Shown one piece after another: positions 1 to 19,554 of a stretch of 20,669 nt of DNA. The DNA is from a virus. Every line of letters begins with the position of its first letter. The stretch's first letter is position 1. The stretch spans positions 1 to 20,669 of IMG/VR virus record IMGVR_UViG_3300014839_001402; one strand, written 5' to 3'. Both the position numbers and the translations under genes were made by a program. Below the pieces are notes generated by a model. The model was not told the DNA's origin, did no database searches, and saw only the letters and a list, made by a program, of their open reading frames with translations.

Positions 1-231
1 CTACCCATCCCAACATCCTCCCAATTGGTCCAGTTCATCGCCCAAGCCGGGGGCCGTGTGGGCGTGCCACAATTCACGCAGGACGGACTCCGGGATGTAA
101 ATGTGGCCGGGACTGGCGGGATCCGGCCTGGCTGCCGCTTGCAGCGCCTCTTTATAGCCTGGCAAACGGCGGCTGGCGTTCCGCTCGATGTCGTCAATGC
201 TCAATCGTATTAGCACCTCGCCGCCTTTCAT
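1..231 (-). CDS. Small uncharacterised protein, 76 aa
   Basis: Complete small gene whose TAG stop is the first three bases of the window. I chose the ATG at 229-231 because it directly follows the GATTA(A/G) hexamer array; an upstream in-frame start at 273 would translate the array as an Arg/Ile/Lys run. The product starts MKGGEVLIRLSID and is mixed charged, with no membrane segment and a C-terminal GGCWDG. It lies 32 bp downstream of the 442-aa gene in the same transcription direction and is probably co-transcribed with the tail genes. I do not recognise the family; by position it could be a small tail or baseplate accessory protein, which is inference only. Confidence 0.6.
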   Translation of the reverse strand: MKGGEVLIRLSIDDIERNASRRLPGYKEALQAAARPDPASPGHIYIPESVLRELWHAHTAPGLGDELDQLGGCWDG

Positions 232-254
232 AATCTTAATCTTAATCCTAATCC
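232..254 (-). repeat. GATTA(A/G) hexamer array directly before an ATG
   Basis: On the minus strand the units read GATTAG, GATTAA, GATTAA and end directly at the ATG of the 76-aa gene. A purine run (AGAAGAAGG) precedes the array and may act as the ribosome binding site. Related arrays lie at 11499-11526 and 13537-13568. Confidence 0.7.
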
Positions 255-263
255 TTCTTCTTT

Positions 264-11498: not shown

Positions 11499-11526
11499 AA
11501 TCTTGATCCTGATCTTGATCTTAATC
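11499..11526 (-). repeat. GAT(T/C)AAG-type hexamer array before the exported-looking gene
   Basis: Minus-strand GATTAA, GATCAA, GATCAG, GATCAA, GATT runs up to the ATG at 11498, matching the layout at 232-254. The array may supply a weak Shine-Dalgarno (AGGATCAAG). Confidence 0.7.
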
Positions 11527-11541: not shown

Positions 11542-12804
11542 TTACCGCTGCGCCGTTTGCAGAATCGCAAATGCGTTCGTTTGCCGGCACCCCGTCGCCG
11601 CCCGCCCGTAAGCGCGGAACGACCGTTCCAGCGTGTTCCACCGGTAGTGGTCGCTCGATTCAAAGACGAAGTCGTCCCGAACCCCCACCACCTGTCCGTT
11701 GCGATCCCCGAAGGCCGCGATCGCTTTCCCCGGCGCGTCCACGTTCGGCGCCGCCATCACCGGCACCACCGGATAGCCCAGGATCGTGCCGATCGCCCCA
11801 TAGCTCGGCGCTTCCAGCGCCCCCAGGAAGATCGGGCGCCCGTTGTTGTCCTTGATCCCCATCATCCGCACTAGCATCTGCGGATGGATCCACCACCGCG
11901 GCTTGCGCTTCAGCACCGCCGGCGCCACCGTCGTCAGCACCCGCGTCACGTCGTCGAAGTCCAGCGCCGCCACGCTCGTGTTCCCCGTCGCCGCCATCGC
12001 GTTGTTCCCCGTGTTGAACACCCCGGTGAACCCCCCGTTGTTCCCGTCCGCCACCCCGCTGCCCACGAACGCCGCCGTGTCAAGACGAAGGTTCCACGCC
12101 TCCTGGAAGTCCTCCATCACCATCGCGGTCACGTCAAACTCCGCGTCCTCGATCAATTGCCGGCTCACGTTCAGCAGCACCGCGTTCGGCAGCACCGTCA
12201 GCGTCATGGTCGAGCCGGCTTCGTTCACGTCGTCCGCGATCGCCGCCGCCTCCGTCGTCAGCCATTGCGCCGCCGCCCGCGCCGTCTTCACCGGGAAGTT
12301 CGTCACCTTCGTCCCCAGCCGCCTCACTCCCAGCGTGCTCCAATCCCCGTACTGTGCCAGCGTGTCGTAGATTTCCTTGAACAACTGCGCGATGATCAGC
12401 GTCGCCCCCTCCCCGGCATCCTCCCCGATCGCCCGCGCGATCGGCTCGCACACCGCCCTCATGTCCCCGTTCCGGTCCACCGCCGTCCGCACCGCCAGAT
12501 TCAGCCGCGCCCGCTTCTCCGGGTCGTTGATGATCCGCTGGATCGGGTCTATCCCCGCCGCGATCGCCTCGCTCCGAAGCTGCATCTGCAGCCTCTGCAT
12601 CGCCGTCAGCACTTTGGCCCGGTCGTTGGCCGTGTTCTTCAGCCGCGTGATCTCCTCCATCGTTTGCTTGGTTTCCCGCCCAAGTTGATCGTAGTTTTTC
12701 AGCAGCGTCTCCTGGTTGCGTTCCACCGCCTGGTATTTCTCCTCCACCGCGTTCACGCTCCGTAGGACCGTCTCCTCGAATTGCTCCTCTGTTAAGTTTC
12801 TCAT
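11542..12804 (-). CDS. Major capsid protein, HK97 fold, 420 aa
   Basis: Builds the icosahedral head. Residues about 1-80 form a charged coiled coil (EEQFEETVLRSVNAVEEKYQ and ETLLKNYDQLGRETKQTMEE), the scaffold-like delta domain that an S78-type protease normally removes. The remainder has the features of HK97 capsid proteins: RLGTKVTNFPVKTARAAAQW, a helix with ISRQ-like NVSRQLIEDAEFDVTAMVMEDF, the loop FVGSGVADGNNGGFTGVFN, and near the end the A-domain block GTILGYPVVPVMAAP followed by FGDRNGQVVGVRDDF. The ATG at 12804 overlaps the upstream polyprotein stop (ATGA) and has a good Shine-Dalgarno (AAGGAAAG). The order protease then capsid is canonical. This is one of the most secure calls. Confidence 0.88.
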   Translation of the reverse strand: MRNLTEEQFEETVLRSVNAVEEKYQAVERNQETLLKNYDQLGRETKQTMEEITRLKNTANDRAKVLTAMQRLQMQLRSEAIAAGIDPIQRIINDPEKRARLNLAVRTAVDRNGDMRAVCEPIARAIGEDAGEGATLIIAQLFKEIYDTLAQYGDWSTLGVRRLGTKVTNFPVKTARAAAQWLTTEAAAIADDVNEAGSTMTLTVLPNAVLLNVSRQLIEDAEFDVTAMVMEDFQEAWNLRLDTAAFVGSGVADGNNGGFTGVFNTGNNAMAATGNTSVAALDFDDVTRVLTTVAPAVLKRKPRWWIHPQMLVRMMGIKDNNGRPIFLGALEAPSYGAIGTILGYPVVPVMAAPNVDAPGKAIAAFGDRNGQVVGVRDDFVFESSDHYRWNTLERSFRAYGRAATGCRQTNAFAILQTAQR

Positions 12805-15695
12805 GCTTTCTTTCCTTCTTGTTTGATTGCCTCATGCAGTTTCTCCAGGAATCTTCCCCGCGCCTGCTCCCGGGCCTGCGCGGCTTGAGCAGGGGTGTCG
12901 GCCGCGCCGGCGTTCTCGCGTTCTGAGAATTCCTTGGAAAGTGTTCTTAAATCCGCCTCATCTATCGCCCCGGCCTGGTAGGCCTTGGCCAAAGCGTTCG
13001 GGTTCGCACCCACCACGCAGCACGACAGCTCCACCTGTTCCTGCTCCGTGTAAATCGTCCGCACCGCCGCGTCCCCCGGCAGGCCCAGCTCCTTCAACTG
13101 CTCCGTCCACGCCTCCCCCGAATTCGGCGTCAAATACTTCACCGGATAAAATCCCACGCTCACCGCCTTCAGATACCCCGCCTCCGTCATCTTCCACCCG
13201 ATCTGCGCCAGCTTGTTTTCCGGCACGTCTATCGCCCATTGCACCCGCTCGATCAGCCGCGAGCCTTCCACCCGGAAATCAATCACCTTCCCCAGGCACT
13301 TCTCGATGCTCGAATAGTCGTGCGAGTCCACCAACGGCGAGTTCTTCGCAAAATTCGTGAACCGCCACCCTCCCGCCCGGATGATCTCGTGGTAACTGTC
13401 AATACTTTCATCCGACGCGATATAATCCACAATCCCCTGCCGCGCGTCCACGATCCTCACCTCCGGGTGCAGCAGCCGGATCAGCGGCGCGCCGCTCCTC
13501 CTATAAATCCCATCCATCCCCTTCTTCTCCTCTTCTCCTAATCCTAATCCTAATCCTAATCTTAATCCCTTCCCATCCCCCGCCGCGCACGCCACCGCCA
13601 CGCACTGGCAATTCGCCACATTCCCCGCCGACCCCTCTTCCGCGCACGGATGCCGCAGCCGCTCCCCTCCCACCAAAAACAGCCCCGCCACCGGCGCCAC
13701 CTGCCCGTTGGCTTCCAGGTGCGACGCCCGCGCCTGTTCGTGTCCGCTGCCAAGCCAGCGCTTGCCCGTCACCCCGGCTTGTTCCATCGCCGCGTCCCGC
13801 GCCAGGCCGAAAGCCGCCCCCGTTTCCTCCAGTGCCGCCGCCGGGACCAGCCGCTTTGAAATCTCATTGAACCGCGCCCGCGCCGCGTCCGCCGCCCCGC
13901 CTTCCGGCGCGTTCCCCACCGCCTCCGTGATCTCGCGGTGAATCCTCTCCGCCCTCTCCGCCCATTTCCCTTCCCGCCACTTCACAAACCGCTCCGCCCG
14001 CTCCCGCGGCATCACGAACCCTTCCGTCCGTCCGATCTCCTCGAAAAGCTGCTGTCCCCCCGTCTGCAAGCCCGCCTCCGTCACCGGCCGCAGCGCCGCC
14101 CTCAGCCCCGCCGCAAACCCATCCAAGTCAAATACATTCTGCTCCTTCCGTTCCATCCGCCGCAGCGTCTCCGTCCTGGCCTTCATCAACTCCCGGTTGA
14201 ACCGCGATTCAAACCCCTTGATCATCTCCCGTCTCCGCCCCATCAACTCCCGCCATTGCGCCAGCTCCGCCGCCGGCCGCCCCTCCGCCCCCGCGCCGCC
14301 GCTCCGTGAGTCGCCGCCCCCTTGCCCCAGTTCCCCCTCATAGTTCCCATGCTTCCCATAATTCCCATCCGTCCCCTTCTCCGCCCTCCTCAACCCGCCC
14401 CTCCCCTCCAGCGCCTTCCTCATCAGCGCCACCGCGTCATCCATCGGCTCCGCCAGATCCGGATTCTTCTCCGGCAAAACCAGCCCGCTGATCGGCGCCA
14501 GGTTGAACGGCAAATACCCCTTCTCCCAATCCGGGCACGCCGGCAATTCCAGGTCCAGGTGATCGTTCAGCACCTTCAACGGCACCCCCATTTGAAAATA
14601 CTTCTGCGCCGTGTCCGCCCGTTCCCTCCGCACCGCCTGGATCACCGGATGCTCGTCCCAGTTCAGCGACGCCGTCAGGTTCCCTCCGCTTTGCCGCCGC
14701 AGCACCCGCCCGATGGACTGGCAGATCTTCTCCCCCAGCGGAATGCACGTCTCCGCGATCAGCATGAACCAGTCCGACGCCGACCCGATCGAATAACTCG
14801 CCTTCACGTCCGCCATCGAAGCCGGCACTCCCATCGCCAGAAAAATCTCGTGCCGGTTCTGCAGCCGCGTCGCCACAAAGTCCGCGTCCGGCACCCGGAT
14901 CTTCGGGTCCTCTATCGTCACGTCCGCGTCCAAAAAAACCGGCTTGAACACCCCGCGCTGAGCCAGCTCCCGCTTCTCCCGGATCTGGTCCACCAACTGC
15001 TGCCTCTGCGTGTCCGTCGGCACCCCGTTCTTGGCGATCACATACACCCCCTGGTCCCCGTTGTTCCGCATCAGGTTCAGGTTGAACTTCCCCGCCAGAT
15101 AATCCGCCTCCGCCGCGTCCCGGCACGGCTTCAACTCCGACAGCCCCCGCCAATCGCTGTAAGGATTCCACAGCTTCGTTTGGATCACCTGTTCCGGCAG
15201 CAGCAACGCGTGCCGCCCCGCCTCGTCCACATATTCCCATCCTTCCAACAACCCATTCTTCACCACGTGCCGCATCCGGTCCGGCCGCGCCACGATCAAC
15301 GGCGGATGCCCTCCCGCCGCTTTCGCATTGAAAAACGGCATCAGCCAACTGTCATCCATGATCCAAAAAGCCTCCCCTTCCAGCTTCAGCCAGCTCACCG
15401 TTGCCTCGATAAAATCCGTCCGCGTCAAACCCAGCCCCGGCGCCTCCCAAAACCCCTCCAGCTCCGCCGGATGCATCCGCCGCCCCTCCTGCGCGAACTT
15501 CAATTCCACCGCCGCTATCGGCCCCGCCACCTTCTTGATCGCCCGCATCACCCAGGTGGATTGTTCGTACGCCCGGGACATCTTTTCACCCCCGGTCGCG
15601 TCGTATGGCATGATCTTATTGAACGGAAAGGGCGCGCCGCTCTTGAAAATCAAGGCCGCGGCGGCGTGGAGGCGGGAGAAAAAGGTGGGATTCAT
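12801..15695 (-). CDS. Portal - MuF minor head - prohead protease fusion, 964 aa
   Basis: Three head-assembly activities sit in one frame. Residues about 25-420 are an HK97-type portal (SWLKLEGEAFW, LKPCRDAAEADYLAGKFN, FLAMGVPASMADVKASYSIGS). Residues about 480-705 carry a MuF-type minor head domain ending in KRWLGSGHEQARASHLEANG and NVANCQC, the family's usual C-terminal block. Residues 727-964 are an S78 prohead protease with His792 in DSHDYSS, Ser846 in KAVSVGFYPVKY and the later VELSCCVVGANPNA strand. Separate genes are usual. The junction (residues 709-726, KGLRLGLGLGLGEEEKKG) is a translated hexamer array. The start is the ATG at 15695, with AGGAG eight bases upstream; a TTG at 15746 is less likely. 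An internal ATG (Met727, 13515-13517) follows a GGAG/AAGGGG region and could give free protease. Residues 442-453 are another translated repeat. Confidence 0.88.
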   Translation of the reverse strand: MNPTFFSRLHAAAALIFKSGAPFPFNKIMPYDATGGEKMSRAYEQSTWVMRAIKKVAGPIAAVELKFAQEGRRMHPAELEGFWEAPGLGLTRTDFIEATVSWLKLEGEAFWIMDDSWLMPFFNAKAAGGHPPLIVARPDRMRHVVKNGLLEGWEYVDEAGRHALLLPEQVIQTKLWNPYSDWRGLSELKPCRDAAEADYLAGKFNLNLMRNNGDQGVYVIAKNGVPTDTQRQQLVDQIREKRELAQRGVFKPVFLDADVTIEDPKIRVPDADFVATRLQNRHEIFLAMGVPASMADVKASYSIGSASDWFMLIAETCIPLGEKICQSIGRVLRRQSGGNLTASLNWDEHPVIQAVRRERADTAQKYFQMGVPLKVLNDHLDLELPACPDWEKGYLPFNLAPISGLVLPEKNPDLAEPMDDAVALMRKALEGRGGLRRAEKGTDGNYGKHGNYEGELGQGGGDSRSGGAGAEGRPAAELAQWRELMGRRREMIKGFESRFNRELMKARTETLRRMERKEQNVFDLDGFAAGLRAALRPVTEAGLQTGGQQLFEEIGRTEGFVMPRERAERFVKWREGKWAERAERIHREITEAVGNAPEGGAADAARARFNEISKRLVPAAALEETGAAFGLARDAAMEQAGVTGKRWLGSGHEQARASHLEANGQVAPVAGLFLVGGERLRHPCAEEGSAGNVANCQCVAVACAAGDGKGLRLGLGLGLGEEEKKGMDGIYRRSGAPLIRLLHPEVRIVDARQGIVDYIASDESIDSYHEIIRAGGWRFTNFAKNSPLVDSHDYSSIEKCLGKVIDFRVEGSRLIERVQWAIDVPENKLAQIGWKMTEAGYLKAVSVGFYPVKYLTPNSGEAWTEQLKELGLPGDAAVRTIYTEQEQVELSCCVVGANPNALAKAYQAGAIDEADLRTLSKEFSERENAGAADTPAQAAQAREQARGRFLEKLHEAIKQEGKKA
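13537..13568 (-). repeat. Translated GGATTA hexamer array fusing MuF domain and protease
   Basis: On the minus strand the sequence reads GGATTAAGATTA and then four GGATTA units. Read in frame it encodes Leu-Arg-Leu-Gly-Leu-Gly-Leu-Gly-Leu-Gly. It is followed by GAAGAGGAGAAGAAGGGG and Met727. Hexamers keep the frame, and two of three frames have no stop, which explains how a spacer could become a linker. Confidence 0.8.
14337..14372 (-). repeat. Translated GGGAA(T/C)TATGGGAA-type repeat in the portal tail
   Basis: Residues 442-453 of the polyprotein (TDGNYGKHGNYE) are encoded by GGGAATTATGGGAAGCATGG and GAACTATG on the minus strand, the family that makes the array at 15766-15830. It sits in the linker between portal and MuF domains. 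Confidence 0.65.
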
Positions 15696-15757: not shown

Positions 15758-15900
15758 ACGCTCGTCCCATAGTTCCCATAACTCCCATAGTTCCCATAAC
15801 TCCCATAGTTCCCATAACTCCCATAATTCCGATGCTTCCCATTGGTCTTACAGGTCACATCCCCCGCCTCGCGTTTCGTCGCCCAAAAATTCGTTTTCAT
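15730..15900 (-). CDS. Possible 56-aa Tyr-Gly repeat peptide coupled to the large terminase
   Basis: The ATG at 15898-15900 overlaps the terminase stop (ATGA). The frame encodes MKTNFWATKREAGDVTCKTN, then about 20 residues of alternating NYGSYG, and ends VNTIFGHRI. The last residues mirror the terminase C-terminus (GNTVFAQII), because the 3' end of the terminase gene has been duplicated here. The stop is 34 bp upstream of the portal start. It is either a true small protein or, more likely, a coupling frame left by a repeat cassette that inserted in this junction. The Tyr/Gly/Asn composition would be disordered or adhesive if translated. Confidence 0.4.
   Translation of the reverse strand: MKTNFWATKREAGDVTCKTNGKHRNYGSYGNYGSYGNYGSYGNYGTSVNTIFGHRI
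15766..15830 (-). repeat. 9-bp/18-bp TATGGGAGT - TATGGGAAC tandem array
   Basis: Plus-strand CCCATAGTT and CCCATAACT alternate in 9-bp steps, giving an 18-bp higher-order unit repeated about three and a half times. In the 56-aa frame it reads Asn-Tyr-Gly-Ser-Tyr-Gly. A shorter relative lies in the portal coding region at 14337-14372. Confidence 0.85.
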
Positions 15901-15924
15901 ATAATCTGCGCAAAAACTGTGTTT
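15883..15924 (-). repeat. Duplicated 42-bp segment, copy 1 (terminase 3' end)
   Basis: This covers the last codons and stop of the large terminase. It is the presumed original of the copy at 15716-15757. Confidence 0.65.
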
Positions 15925-17324
15925 CCCCTTCCCCGCTGGCTTGCATGTACCCACAACGCCAGCGCCCAAAAACGATCCGCGTGCCCATCCTTGCTTCTTT
16001 CCCCATCAAATCTAAGGTTCCCCGCCGCCGTCGCCGTCTTGCGAATGCACCGCAAATCCGATCGGATGAACTTGTCGTTTGGCAGCCGGATGCTTCCCGC
16101 CTCCAGTCCGGCCTTCACCGGATAGGCCAGTTCCTCCTTCACCTGGCTCGTGAAATTGATTCCCTCCACCCGATACTTCCCAAATTTCTGGATCGCCCGC
16201 TCCGCGAACTGGCGCCCGATCCCCGACTGGTCAATGCAGCACCGCTGTAGGTTCGGCAGCGCCAGGATTTCGTACAACACCTTCTCCTGCGTTTCGAACG
16301 TCGCGTTTTCCAAACAGATCACCCGCCGCGTATATCGGACCTCGCCCAACTTCTCCCCCACCCAAATGACCGTCAGATCGTGCGTGCGCCCGACATCCAC
16401 CCCGGCGTAGAGGTCCTTGCATTGGGAAAGTTCGCCTTCCCAATGTTCATCGGGGCCATACTCGCAGCGTGCAATCACGTCATAGCTCAGGAACGCCACG
16501 TTATCGTCCCCCGGCTGGCACATAAACTCCTGCTGCCAGCTCTCCTCATCCGCGCATTCCTTGCGCAGGCTTTGCAGAAAATCATCATTCGACCATTTCA
16601 GCCGGTCATCTCCCGGGTCCGCCTCCCGCCACTTCGCTTTTAATTTCTCAAGCAGTCCTTCTTCGACTGCTTGAACAATGGTCACACTATGCAGGCTGAA
16701 CCCTTTCGGATTTCCCTTCTCCTTGATTTCCTGCACCAGCTCATGGAAGAAATTCCCCGTCCCGCGATGCGTCGAAATGATGTCCATCCCGCCTCCCCAT
16801 AAAGTCCCCGGCTGTCCTATCGCGTAAAGCAGCCGGTTCTCCGCGTTCAGCGCGAACTCATCAAACACCCGCCGCCCGCGCTTCCCCGCCTGCGCGTTGG
16901 GATTGGAACTCAAGCTATAGATGGCCCGTCCGTTCTTAAACGGCAGCACCTGCGCCGTGATTTTTTCCGTCGTATCAATGTATCGCTCGCGGATCTTCGC
17001 GGCCTTGGAATGGAGAAGGCGCGCCCAATGGGCGCAATCGGCTCCAAAAAGCTGCGCCTGCAATTCGTCCCGGCTGCTCACCCAGGCGTCGTACTTGTTT
17101 CCTCTCCGGCTGGTTTTTTGCACCAGATCGTACGCGGTGGTCAGGCTGATGCCGATCTGCCGCGATTTCTCCATCAGCCGTTTGCGCGACGCATCCAGAA
17201 TCCACCGCTTTTGGTAGGGGAGAAAGAACCTGTCTGCCGCAAAGGTACACGGAGAACGCAAAGCAGAATCGGCTGATTCCACTTTCGTGTTCTTTGCGTT
17301 CTTTTGCGGCAATATCTTTCTCAC
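15897..17324 (-). CDS. Large terminase (Mu gp28-like), 475 aa
   Basis: The DNA-packaging motor and nuclease. The ATPase domain shows the Walker A-like KSRQIGIS (53-60), hydrophobic-DE Walker B VFDEFA (153-158) and the coupling-type ISTHRGTGNFF (183-193). The RNase H-like nuclease domain has AGVDVGRTHD (Asp310), CCIDQSG (Asp365) and HADRFWALAL (Asp450), the three acidic positions expected. KSRQIGIS resembles the gp28 family. The GTG at 17324 overlaps the small-terminase stop (GTGA), so that start is favoured; the homologous part begins only near FFLPYQKRW (33-41). Residues 4-30 are encoded by an imperfect palindromic repeat and look like an acquired extension. At the 3' end the stop overlaps the ATG of a small frame. 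Confidence 0.88.
   Translation of the reverse strand: MRKILPQKNAKNTKVESADSALRSPCTFAADRFFLPYQKRWILDASRKRLMEKSRQIGISLTTAYDLVQKTSRRGNKYDAWVSSRDELQAQLFGADCAHWARLLHSKAAKIRERYIDTTEKITAQVLPFKNGRAIYSLSSNPNAQAGKRGRRVFDEFALNAENRLLYAIGQPGTLWGGGMDIISTHRGTGNFFHELVQEIKEKGNPKGFSLHSVTIVQAVEEGLLEKLKAKWREADPGDDRLKWSNDDFLQSLRKECADEESWQQEFMCQPGDDNVAFLSYDVIARCEYGPDEHWEGELSQCKDLYAGVDVGRTHDLTVIWVGEKLGEVRYTRRVICLENATFETQEKVLYEILALPNLQRCCIDQSGIGRQFAERAIQKFGKYRVEGINFTSQVKEELAYPVKAGLEAGSIRLPNDKFIRSDLRCIRKTATAAGNLRFDGERSKDGHADRFWALALWVHASQRGRGNTVFAQII
17235..17311. repeat. MITE-like imperfect palindrome encoding the terminase N-terminus
   Basis: The left arm TGCCGCAAA...AGAACGCAAAG (17235-17263, with a GGTACACGG interruption) is the inverse of the right arm CTTTGCGTTCTTTTGCGGCA (17292-17311). 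The 77-bp element lies wholly within the first 30 codons of the large terminase and keeps them open. Confidence 0.65.
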
Positions 17325-18490: not shown

Positions 18491-19309
18491 TCAAAAAATG
18501 GTAGGGCGAGACTCGGTAGGGCGAGACTCGGTAGGGCGAGACTCGGTAGGGCAAGACTCGGTAGGGCAAGACTCGGTAGGGCAAGACTCGGCAGGGCGAG
18601 ACTCTGTCGAGCCGTGACTCGATTTCGCAATGCCTTTCTCGGTAGCGCGATACTCCTTGTCCGCCATAGCTTCAGCGTCGGCGGATGTCGAGCCGTGACT
18701 CGATTCCACTTTCCACTGTTCACCGCCCACTAGCTTCACATAACTCTCCACGTGATGATCCGCCAACAGCGCCACCCGCCCTCTCTGCCATTCCCGCCAC
18801 AAGCCCAGCGCGTCGCTTGCCATCTTCCGATACCACGGCATCTCCACGTGCATCCGGCCGGCCGCGTCGTAAAAAATTTCCGTTCCCGCGTGACGGAACA
18901 TGCGCAGCAGCCACGGCACCCGCGCCACGATGTCCGCCGAATGCACCACCCGGAACGACCTCCCCTTCAGCCTCCCGTCAAACCACTGCATCCAAGCCCC
19001 GTTCCCCACTCGTGGCTGTCCAAACGAGTACATCCACCCGGTAGGGCGAGACTCGGTAGGGCGAGACTCTGTCGAGCCGTGACTTAATCCCTCCCACCAC
19101 GCCATCGCCAGCATCGCCAGCGCCCCGCCCAGCGAATGCCCCGTAAAGTAAATCCGCTCCCTCCCTTCCATCCTCTCCACAATCCGCAAAATCCTTGCCC
19201 ACACCCCCTCCAGCGCCCTCTGGAAGCCCTCGTGGACTTTCACCCCCGACAGATCAGCATTCCCCATTCTGCATTCCGCACTCTGCATTCCGCACTCTGC
19301 AATTTGCAT
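18491..19309 (-). CDS. Class 3 lipase, C-terminal catalytic part of a split gene, 272 aa
   Basis: This half holds the complete catalytic triad: Ser59 in GHSLGGA, Asp126 in SADIVARVP and His185/186 in ADHHVESY, as in the lipase class 3 family. The frame opens at an ATG within the CGGAATGCAGAGTG-type array, with GGA before it, and could be reached by re-initiation or frameshift from the upstream half (19240-19554). Repeats are also translated inside it: HGSTESRPTESRPT (77-90) interrupts the region between the nucleophile elbow and the YSFGQPRVG strand, and the last 40-odd residues are Ser-Cys/Arg-Pro-Thr-Glu units. The 15-mer unit preserves frame. Phage lipases are rare and this may act in host lysis or be a passenger. 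Confidence 0.7.
   Translation of the reverse strand: MQIAECGMQSAECRMGNADLSGVKVHEGFQRALEGVWARILRIVERMEGRERIYFTGHSLGGALAMLAMAWWEGLSHGSTESRPTESRPTGWMYSFGQPRVGNGAWMQWFDGRLKGRSFRVVHSADIVARVPWLLRMFRHAGTEIFYDAAGRMHVEMPWYRKMASDALGLWREWQRGRVALLADHHVESYVKLVGGEQWKVESSHGSTSADAEAMADKEYRATEKGIAKSSHGSTESRPAESCPTESCPTESCPTESRPTESRPTESRPTIF
18500..18604. repeat. Seven-unit 15-bp array (GGTAGGGCGAGACTC)
   Basis: Seven consecutive 15-bp units fill 18500-18604; units 4-6 carry GCAAG for GCGAG and the last has GGCAGG. The array is followed by TGTCGAGCCGTGACTCGATT. In the lipase frame it encodes Ser-Arg/Cys-Pro-Thr/Ala-Glu. One-unit and two-unit relatives lie at 20404-20418 and 19040-19069. Confidence 0.88.
19040..19084. 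repeat. Two-unit copy of the 15-bp repeat inside the lipase gene
   Basis: Two GGTAGGGCGAGACTC units (19040-19069) are followed by TGTCGAGCCGTGACT. The same composite (15-mer units plus a TCGAG...CTCGA hairpin) occurs with seven units at 18500 and one unit at 20404. It is inserted in frame. Confidence 0.8.
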
Positions 19310-19554
19310 TCCAAGTCCGTCAGCCAGTTCCTCAAATCCGTCGTCCCGCGAAAGCTAACCACCGCAAACTCATCCGCCGCTGCTACAAACACCAGCGTAT
19401 CCATTGTCCCGTCGCGGATGACTTCGCACCCCGTGCATCCCTGTCTCGCCGCCCATCCGGCAATCGCGGCCTCATTCCCGTAAGCCGCCGCCGCCCCTCC
19501 TAGCAGCGCCGCCGCTATCTCCCGGTCATAAATTCCTTGGACAGGACTTTTCAC
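19240..19554 (-). CDS. Class 3 lipase, N-terminal part of a split gene, 104 aa
   Basis: A GTG at 19554 starts KSPVQGIYDREIAAALLGG; the frame continues to VFVAAADEFAVVSFRGTTDLRNWLTDLE (about 54-81), the FRGT and NWLTDL block that in class 3 lipases immediately precedes the Lys-Val-His-X-Gly-Phe block. Here the latter (KVHEGF) is in the other frame, after 19257. The remaining residues to a TGA at 19240 are read from the repeat array. A frame change within the array therefore splits the gene. The region upstream of the GTG is AATTGGGAATTG repeats (19556-19592). Without a frameshift the half is unlikely to be active. Confidence 0.6.
   Translation of the reverse strand: MKSPVQGIYDREIAAALLGGAAAAYGNEAAIAGWAARQGCTGCEVIRDGTMDTLVFVAAADEFAVVSFRGTTDLRNWLTDLECKLQSAECRVRNAEWGMLICRG
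19257..19318. repeat. CGGAATGCAGAGTG-type array splitting the lipase
   Basis: Minus-strand units of the type GCAGAGTGCGGAAT, GCAGAGTGCGGAAT and GCAGAATGGGGAAT are repeated at about 12-14 bp spacing. The two lipase frames overlap across it, and it lies exactly between the NWLTDLE and KVHEGF blocks of the fold. Confidence 0.75.

Follow-up and report, generated by a model that had tools for sequence, protein, structure and literature searches.

Viral heads mature with few portal subunits (about 12) and many capsid cleavages, the capsid protein being present in hundreds of copies. A virus record of 20,669 bases, analysed over its whole length and called the window below, carries an open reading frame in which a portal, a MuF protein and a prohead protease appear to follow one another without a stop. 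This locus raises the question of whether the three are indeed one protein, how they came to be joined, whether the short tandem repeats inside the frame did the joining, and what a protease attached to a portal would do. The answer that we consider probable is that, in one lineage, the prohead protease became translationally fused to an already existing, ancestral portal-MuF protein, that selection has kept this fusion, that repeats have overwritten its variable joint, and that the protease is tethered to the portal vertex.

Three head functions in one reading frame

The head and tail genes of the window lie on its minus strand, in the order terminase (15897–17324), fused ORF (12801–15695), capsid (11542–12804), and then connector and tail-type genes; all positions given for these genes and their parts refer to this strand. 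The fused ORF runs uninterrupted from its ATG over 964 codons, and its TGA overlaps the ATG of the capsid gene. As the preliminary description proposed, profile matches to all three proteins fall within this single frame: firstly, residues 49–371 (14583–15551) match the portal profile PF04860 (E=5.8e-30) with 105 bits against a curated cut-off of 39.1, identifying an HK97-type portal, while the TIGR01537 score lies under the equivalog cut-off of that model; secondly, a MuF domain downstream of the portal (residues 489–708, 13572–14231) matches phrog_2468 (E=8.9e-21) and is complete, our own HMM covering it from 1 to 230 of 230 positions (3e-103); thirdly, a protease domain occupies residues about 743–946 and is placed on the DNA at 12918–13481. 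A further profile, phrog_2662, covers portal and MuF together (residues 36–700, E=6.9e-40). An array scan located the two repeat-bearing linkers that had been described: a degenerate 9-mer array between portal and MuF (14339–14375, encoding GNYGKHGNYE) and 5.5 copies of a GGATTA hexamer, encoding (Leu-Gly)4, between MuF and protease (13536–13568). An AlphaFold model of the full-length protein, with a pTM of 0.45 and low confidence at both linkers, is used as a hint only.

Sequence and modelled fold together identify the C-terminal domain as a predicted prohead protease of S78-like type. Over residues about 749–940 it matches PHROG families (phrog_617, phrog_4523 and phrog_80; E 1e-10 to 2e-5) of head-maturation proteases and of major-head proteins that bear a protease. 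The Peptidase_S78 profile PF04586 gave no match in the window and a single weak one among 56 family members (E=0.002); His792 (13320–13322) and Ser846 (13158–13160), corresponding to the His/Ser catalytic residues of S78 enzymes, are invariant in 73 of 73 relatives. A 232-residue model built from 56 relatives (pLDDT 86) matched viral prohead proteases in BFVD (best E=1.4e-10), consistent with a predicted prohead protease/assemblin fold. Against PDB structures its best matches were all herpesvirus maturation proteases, at weak significance (E 0.03), and the protease profile found no match among PDB sequences.

MuF proteins frequently bear C-terminal effector domains, peptidases among them (PMC5576092), and on that precedent the domain could be a peptidase delivered into the host rather than a maturation enzyme. 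This is very improbable, since the domain is orthologous to a separate gene that sits between MuF and capsid in unfused relatives, its predicted fold is prohead protease-like, and no further protease gene was seen from portal to capsid within the window. On the strength of this orthology with a head protease that relatives encode separately, the protein was not assigned to the MuF polymorphic toxins.

The neighbouring HK97-type major capsid protein (PF05065, E=3.3e-28 over residues 148–416) has an intact extension of about 147 residues N-terminal to the Pfam domain. By analogy with the HK97-type scaffold extension, which needs a protease, this extension is the presumed protease substrate.

Single origin of the protease fusion

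Scans for relatives yielded about 75 viral contigs and two contigs from Verrucomicrobiota metagenome-assembled genomes (MAGs), in which fusion was scored with our own domain HMMs on stop-to-stop ORFs. Of about 70 related contigs, almost all have portal and MuF in one frame. As far as these sequences go, the portal-MuF fusion is the ancestral state; the joint is also found in relatives that have no repeats, and the earlier suggestion that it, too, was a repeat-linked fusion was not borne out. The exceptions are L037 and L039, which have insertions at the same site between portal and MuF; that of L037 (5487–7755) consists of two ORFs, one of them encoding a large repetitive protein, and undoes the portal-MuF fusion.

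The protease, by comparison, is fused in 7 contigs (the window, L002, L003, L004, L005, L082 and L108) and separate in 65. Two of the seven, L082 and L108, begin inside MuF, so that only their MuF-protease joint is visible; L084, a clade member whose contig is cut, was left out of the count, and all 7 of the 7 testable members are thus fused. Among unfused relatives, the MuF/protease junction is an ATGA overlap in L006 and a single same-frame stop in L011, L014 and L015. The fused clade is monophyletic in the protease tree (eight clade rows, 100/100 support), and the five members with a portal form one group in the portal tree (100/99). Judged from these trees, fusion of the protease arose once and is confined to one clade. 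Protease dN/dS is 0.08–0.22, indicating that purifying selection has maintained the fusion, which is conserved in no fewer than 7 contigs.

MuF itself has changed within the clade. Its C-terminal third, retained in the window and in 65/65 unfused relatives, is lost in L003, L004, L005 and L082, which suggests a drift of the fused product towards a portal-protease form. Separately, some copies are not intact as assembled: L002 has an in-frame TAG (1015–1017) in a portal that is otherwise intact, in place of a codon that specifies Gln in relatives, and this TAG may be a nonsense mutation, an assembly error or a site of stop readthrough; and the otherwise fused copy of L108 has a frameshift inside the protease (about 630–690), attributable to sequencing error or decay.

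In-frame linkers and the supply of protease

The seven MuF-protease linkers are 81–624 nt long; every one is a multiple of 3 and free of in-frame stops, and each has stops in the other two frames taken together. Their contents, read with the caveat that metagenome assemblies can miscount tandem copies, all differ. The window has GGATTA hexamers and L003 degenerate 9-mers; L004 combines AATGCAG heptads with a duplication of 153 bases; L005 has seven CACTTTGGCGGG 12-mers; L082 combines AAATGCA and GCAATCC heptads with a 15-mer element; L108 has three GAAAAGT heptads; and L002 has one dispersed copy of the 15-mer element with no tandem array. The proteases of L003 and L004 are almost identical (pN 0.036) and their linkers entirely different, which argues that arrays turn over faster than the fusion does. 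Because arrays can mislead short-read assembly, the single frame might be ascribed to a false joining of two genes at repeats; with the same fusion in 7 contigs, 7 different in-frame linkers and a protease under purifying selection, we find this extremely improbable.

A free protease might also be made from the fused gene. The preliminary description pointed to internal initiation at Met727 (13515–13517), which immediately follows the GGATTA array and has AGGAG within GGAG-rich purines upstream. For the window the proposal is plausible, and free protease may also be made there in this way to judge from the leader; L002 has a similar possible start site at its joint. The proposal does not extend to the clade: the joints of L005 and L082 contain neither an ATG nor another start codon with a convincing ribosome-binding site, so internal initiation cannot be the clade-wide route to protease.

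The same leader invites the stronger reading that the genes are functionally still separate, with protease coming mainly from Met727 and the array acting as a purine-rich leader as it would before other genes of this virus. Similar hexamers do directly precede the start codons of two other genes, both on the minus strand: a GATTAA-type array, an intergenic sister of the linker array, lies in the 5' leader of the gene that follows capsid (11500–11526), and a GGATTA/GATTAA array leads into the last gene of the window (230–263). We nevertheless consider this reading quite unlikely, both for the missing start sites in L005 and L082 and because in-frame, stop-free linkers in 7/7 members are unexpected if the upstream frame need not continue.

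Instead, we favour translation of one tethered chain. The stop and start between MuF and protease would have been lost once, in one clade, and the three-part chain would since have been retained under purifying selection, its joint serving as a permissive unstructured spacer that was repeatedly overwritten in frame by short tandem repeats of this virus group's spacers. The chain is most likely translated in full and incorporated by way of the portal ring. A portal dodecamer would in this way bring as many as 12 flexibly tethered protease domains into the prohead; there they would cleave the capsid protein in its N-terminal scaffold extension and probably also cut their own linkers, self-cleavage being expected of such enzymes. 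If protease is supplied only in portal-attached form, proteolysis would be coupled to the one vertex at which assembly begins, and the system would allow a test of whether about 12 tethered proteases are enough.

Pairwise portal-MuF, MuF-protease and protease-capsid fusions have been published already; we found no portal-MuF-protease triple in the open-access literature searched, and tblastn of the whole fused protein against cultured phages returned only weak portal or protease matches and no triple fusion. BFVD matches to the full-length model include portals of 880–1200 residues, among which the one inspected was that of halovirus HSTV-1, and an earlier triple fusion may exist among these database entries. 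Its gene 3 resembles the fused ORF in having an N-terminal portal and a C-terminal MuF in one chain, and differs in that the HSTV-1 protease is a separate gene whereas here it is the third fused part. In the parts of the two actinophage reports drawn on here, Arthrobacter cluster AK and Microbacterium clusters EA3/EA5/EA8 and EB likewise have portal and MuF in a single chain (PMC5513430; PMC7302621), but cluster EA is described there as having no protease gene (PMC7302621), while the virus studied here has a fused one. Microbacterium cluster EG joins MuF and a capsid maturation protease in one gene; the relevant part of that report describes the gene as MuF plus protease only, and joint repeat arrays were not seen in it (PMC7302621). 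Small actinophages also have protease-capsid or protease-scaffold-capsid fusions, according to the same parts of these reports (PMC5513430, PMC7302621), and so resemble the window in joining a prohead protease to another head protein; their partner is the capsid, with hundreds of copies, rather than the portal, with about 12.

Tandem repeats in spacers and linkers

The window holds 29 arrays of period 6–21 covering 954 bases; dinucleotide-shuffled versions hold 1.1 arrays covering 32 bases, so the linker arrays are not due to chance. Arrays cover 29% of intergenic bases versus 3% of coding bases, a window-wide distribution that the preliminary description had missed. The 9-mer of the portal-MuF linker belongs to the same family as an array of GGGAACTAT/GGGAGTTAT units that fills the spacer upstream of the fused ORF (15765–15842, minus strand). 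With the same 9-mers and hexamers present in intergenic spacers, the linker looks like the virus's own spacer sequence read in frame. Rfam searches of the window, L037 and L039 gave no match.

The preliminary description held that a connection of repeat expansion with gene fusion could be seen directly at this locus. Comparison with the relatives speaks against this: the fusion arose once, the junction array differs from member to member, L002 is in the strict sense a fused relative that lacks a tandem array at the junction, a case that the preliminary description had named as refuting its reading, and L038 and L042, which are repeat-rich, have arrays within the MuF/protease spacer and are unfused. 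For these last two reasons a class of repeat-created fusions, with an array at the junction in all fused members and only there, was rejected. The GGATTA hexamers of L002 sit instead in its portal-MuF linker and inside MuF. Moreover, the terminase large subunits of L003 and L004 contain repeat-rich sequence inserted in frame between the ATPase and nuclease domains, at one and the same site in both; the window and L006 lack these insertions, which indicates that arrays enter existing linkers. Together, these observations suggest that arrays occupy spacers and linkers in general, and that the junction repeats, different in every relative, are later occupants rather than a visible cause.

An expansion might all the same have created the fusion, if a spacer array removed the stop or shifted the frame, joined the genes and was later replaced by turnover. 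Most spacers of the window are filled by arrays, L038 and L042 have theirs in exactly the spacer concerned and could represent an intermediate, and many unfused relatives have at the junction an ATGA overlap or a single stop that a short insertion could fuse. Array density is also higher in the fused clade (17–73 bases per kb versus a median of 5.3 in the others), although the clade consists of related sequences and the difference is therefore not independent evidence. With only one fusion event there is no repeated association to point to; the linkers are non-homologous between members, L002 again being without a tandem array, and arrays also lie inside domains that needed no fusion. Because the original linker at the fusion is not preserved, we hold a repeat origin to be possible, if unlikely: repeats may have helped the fusion once, and L038 is a plausible intermediate. 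A further reading, which we regard as tentative and rather improbable, makes the repeats an in-frame linker generator that colonised the junctions, fused the protease to portal-MuF and then eroded the MuF core in L003, L004, L005 and L082, giving effectively a portal-protease chain.

Our preferred reading is of a fusion, retained by selection, whose joint the repeats overwrote. The clade offers stages for the study of spacer repeats in gene fusion, namely overlapping genes, a repeat-filled spacer, fused genes and a lost MuF core. The arrays resemble the heptameric intergenic short sequence repeats of Xanthomonas and Nostoc, in which short, G-rich repeats of differing sequence and length stand at conserved positions between genes (PMC4692102). 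They differ from these in that unit length and sequence vary widely and that arrays also lie in frame inside viral coding linkers.

A 15-base repeat, GGTAGGGCGAGACTC, occurs in L002, L082, L084, L116 and the window (18500–18604 and 19039–19069) and, among 116 loci, only in members of the fused clade; a 24-base extension of it matched one contig in the whole viral collection. The occurrence of two distant relatives in Verrucomicrobiota MAG contigs suggests a Verrucomicrobiota host. Other host clues were tried and rejected: a 22-mer of the 15-base element was found in 0 of 289 Verrucomicrobiota genomes and a heptad 20-mer in 2 of 96, which gave no host assignment from repeats, and protease relatives were found in 2 of 388 genomes. 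The capsid DNA had no match among cultured phages.

Repeats also mark a class 3 lipase gene (PF01764; 18491–19554, minus strand), which appears to be broken into two overlapping frames where an array of 7-base repeats lies (19257–19311). This gene has either decayed or is a candidate for phase variation driven by repeats, and its C-terminal half contains 15-base arrays encoding TESRP repeats.
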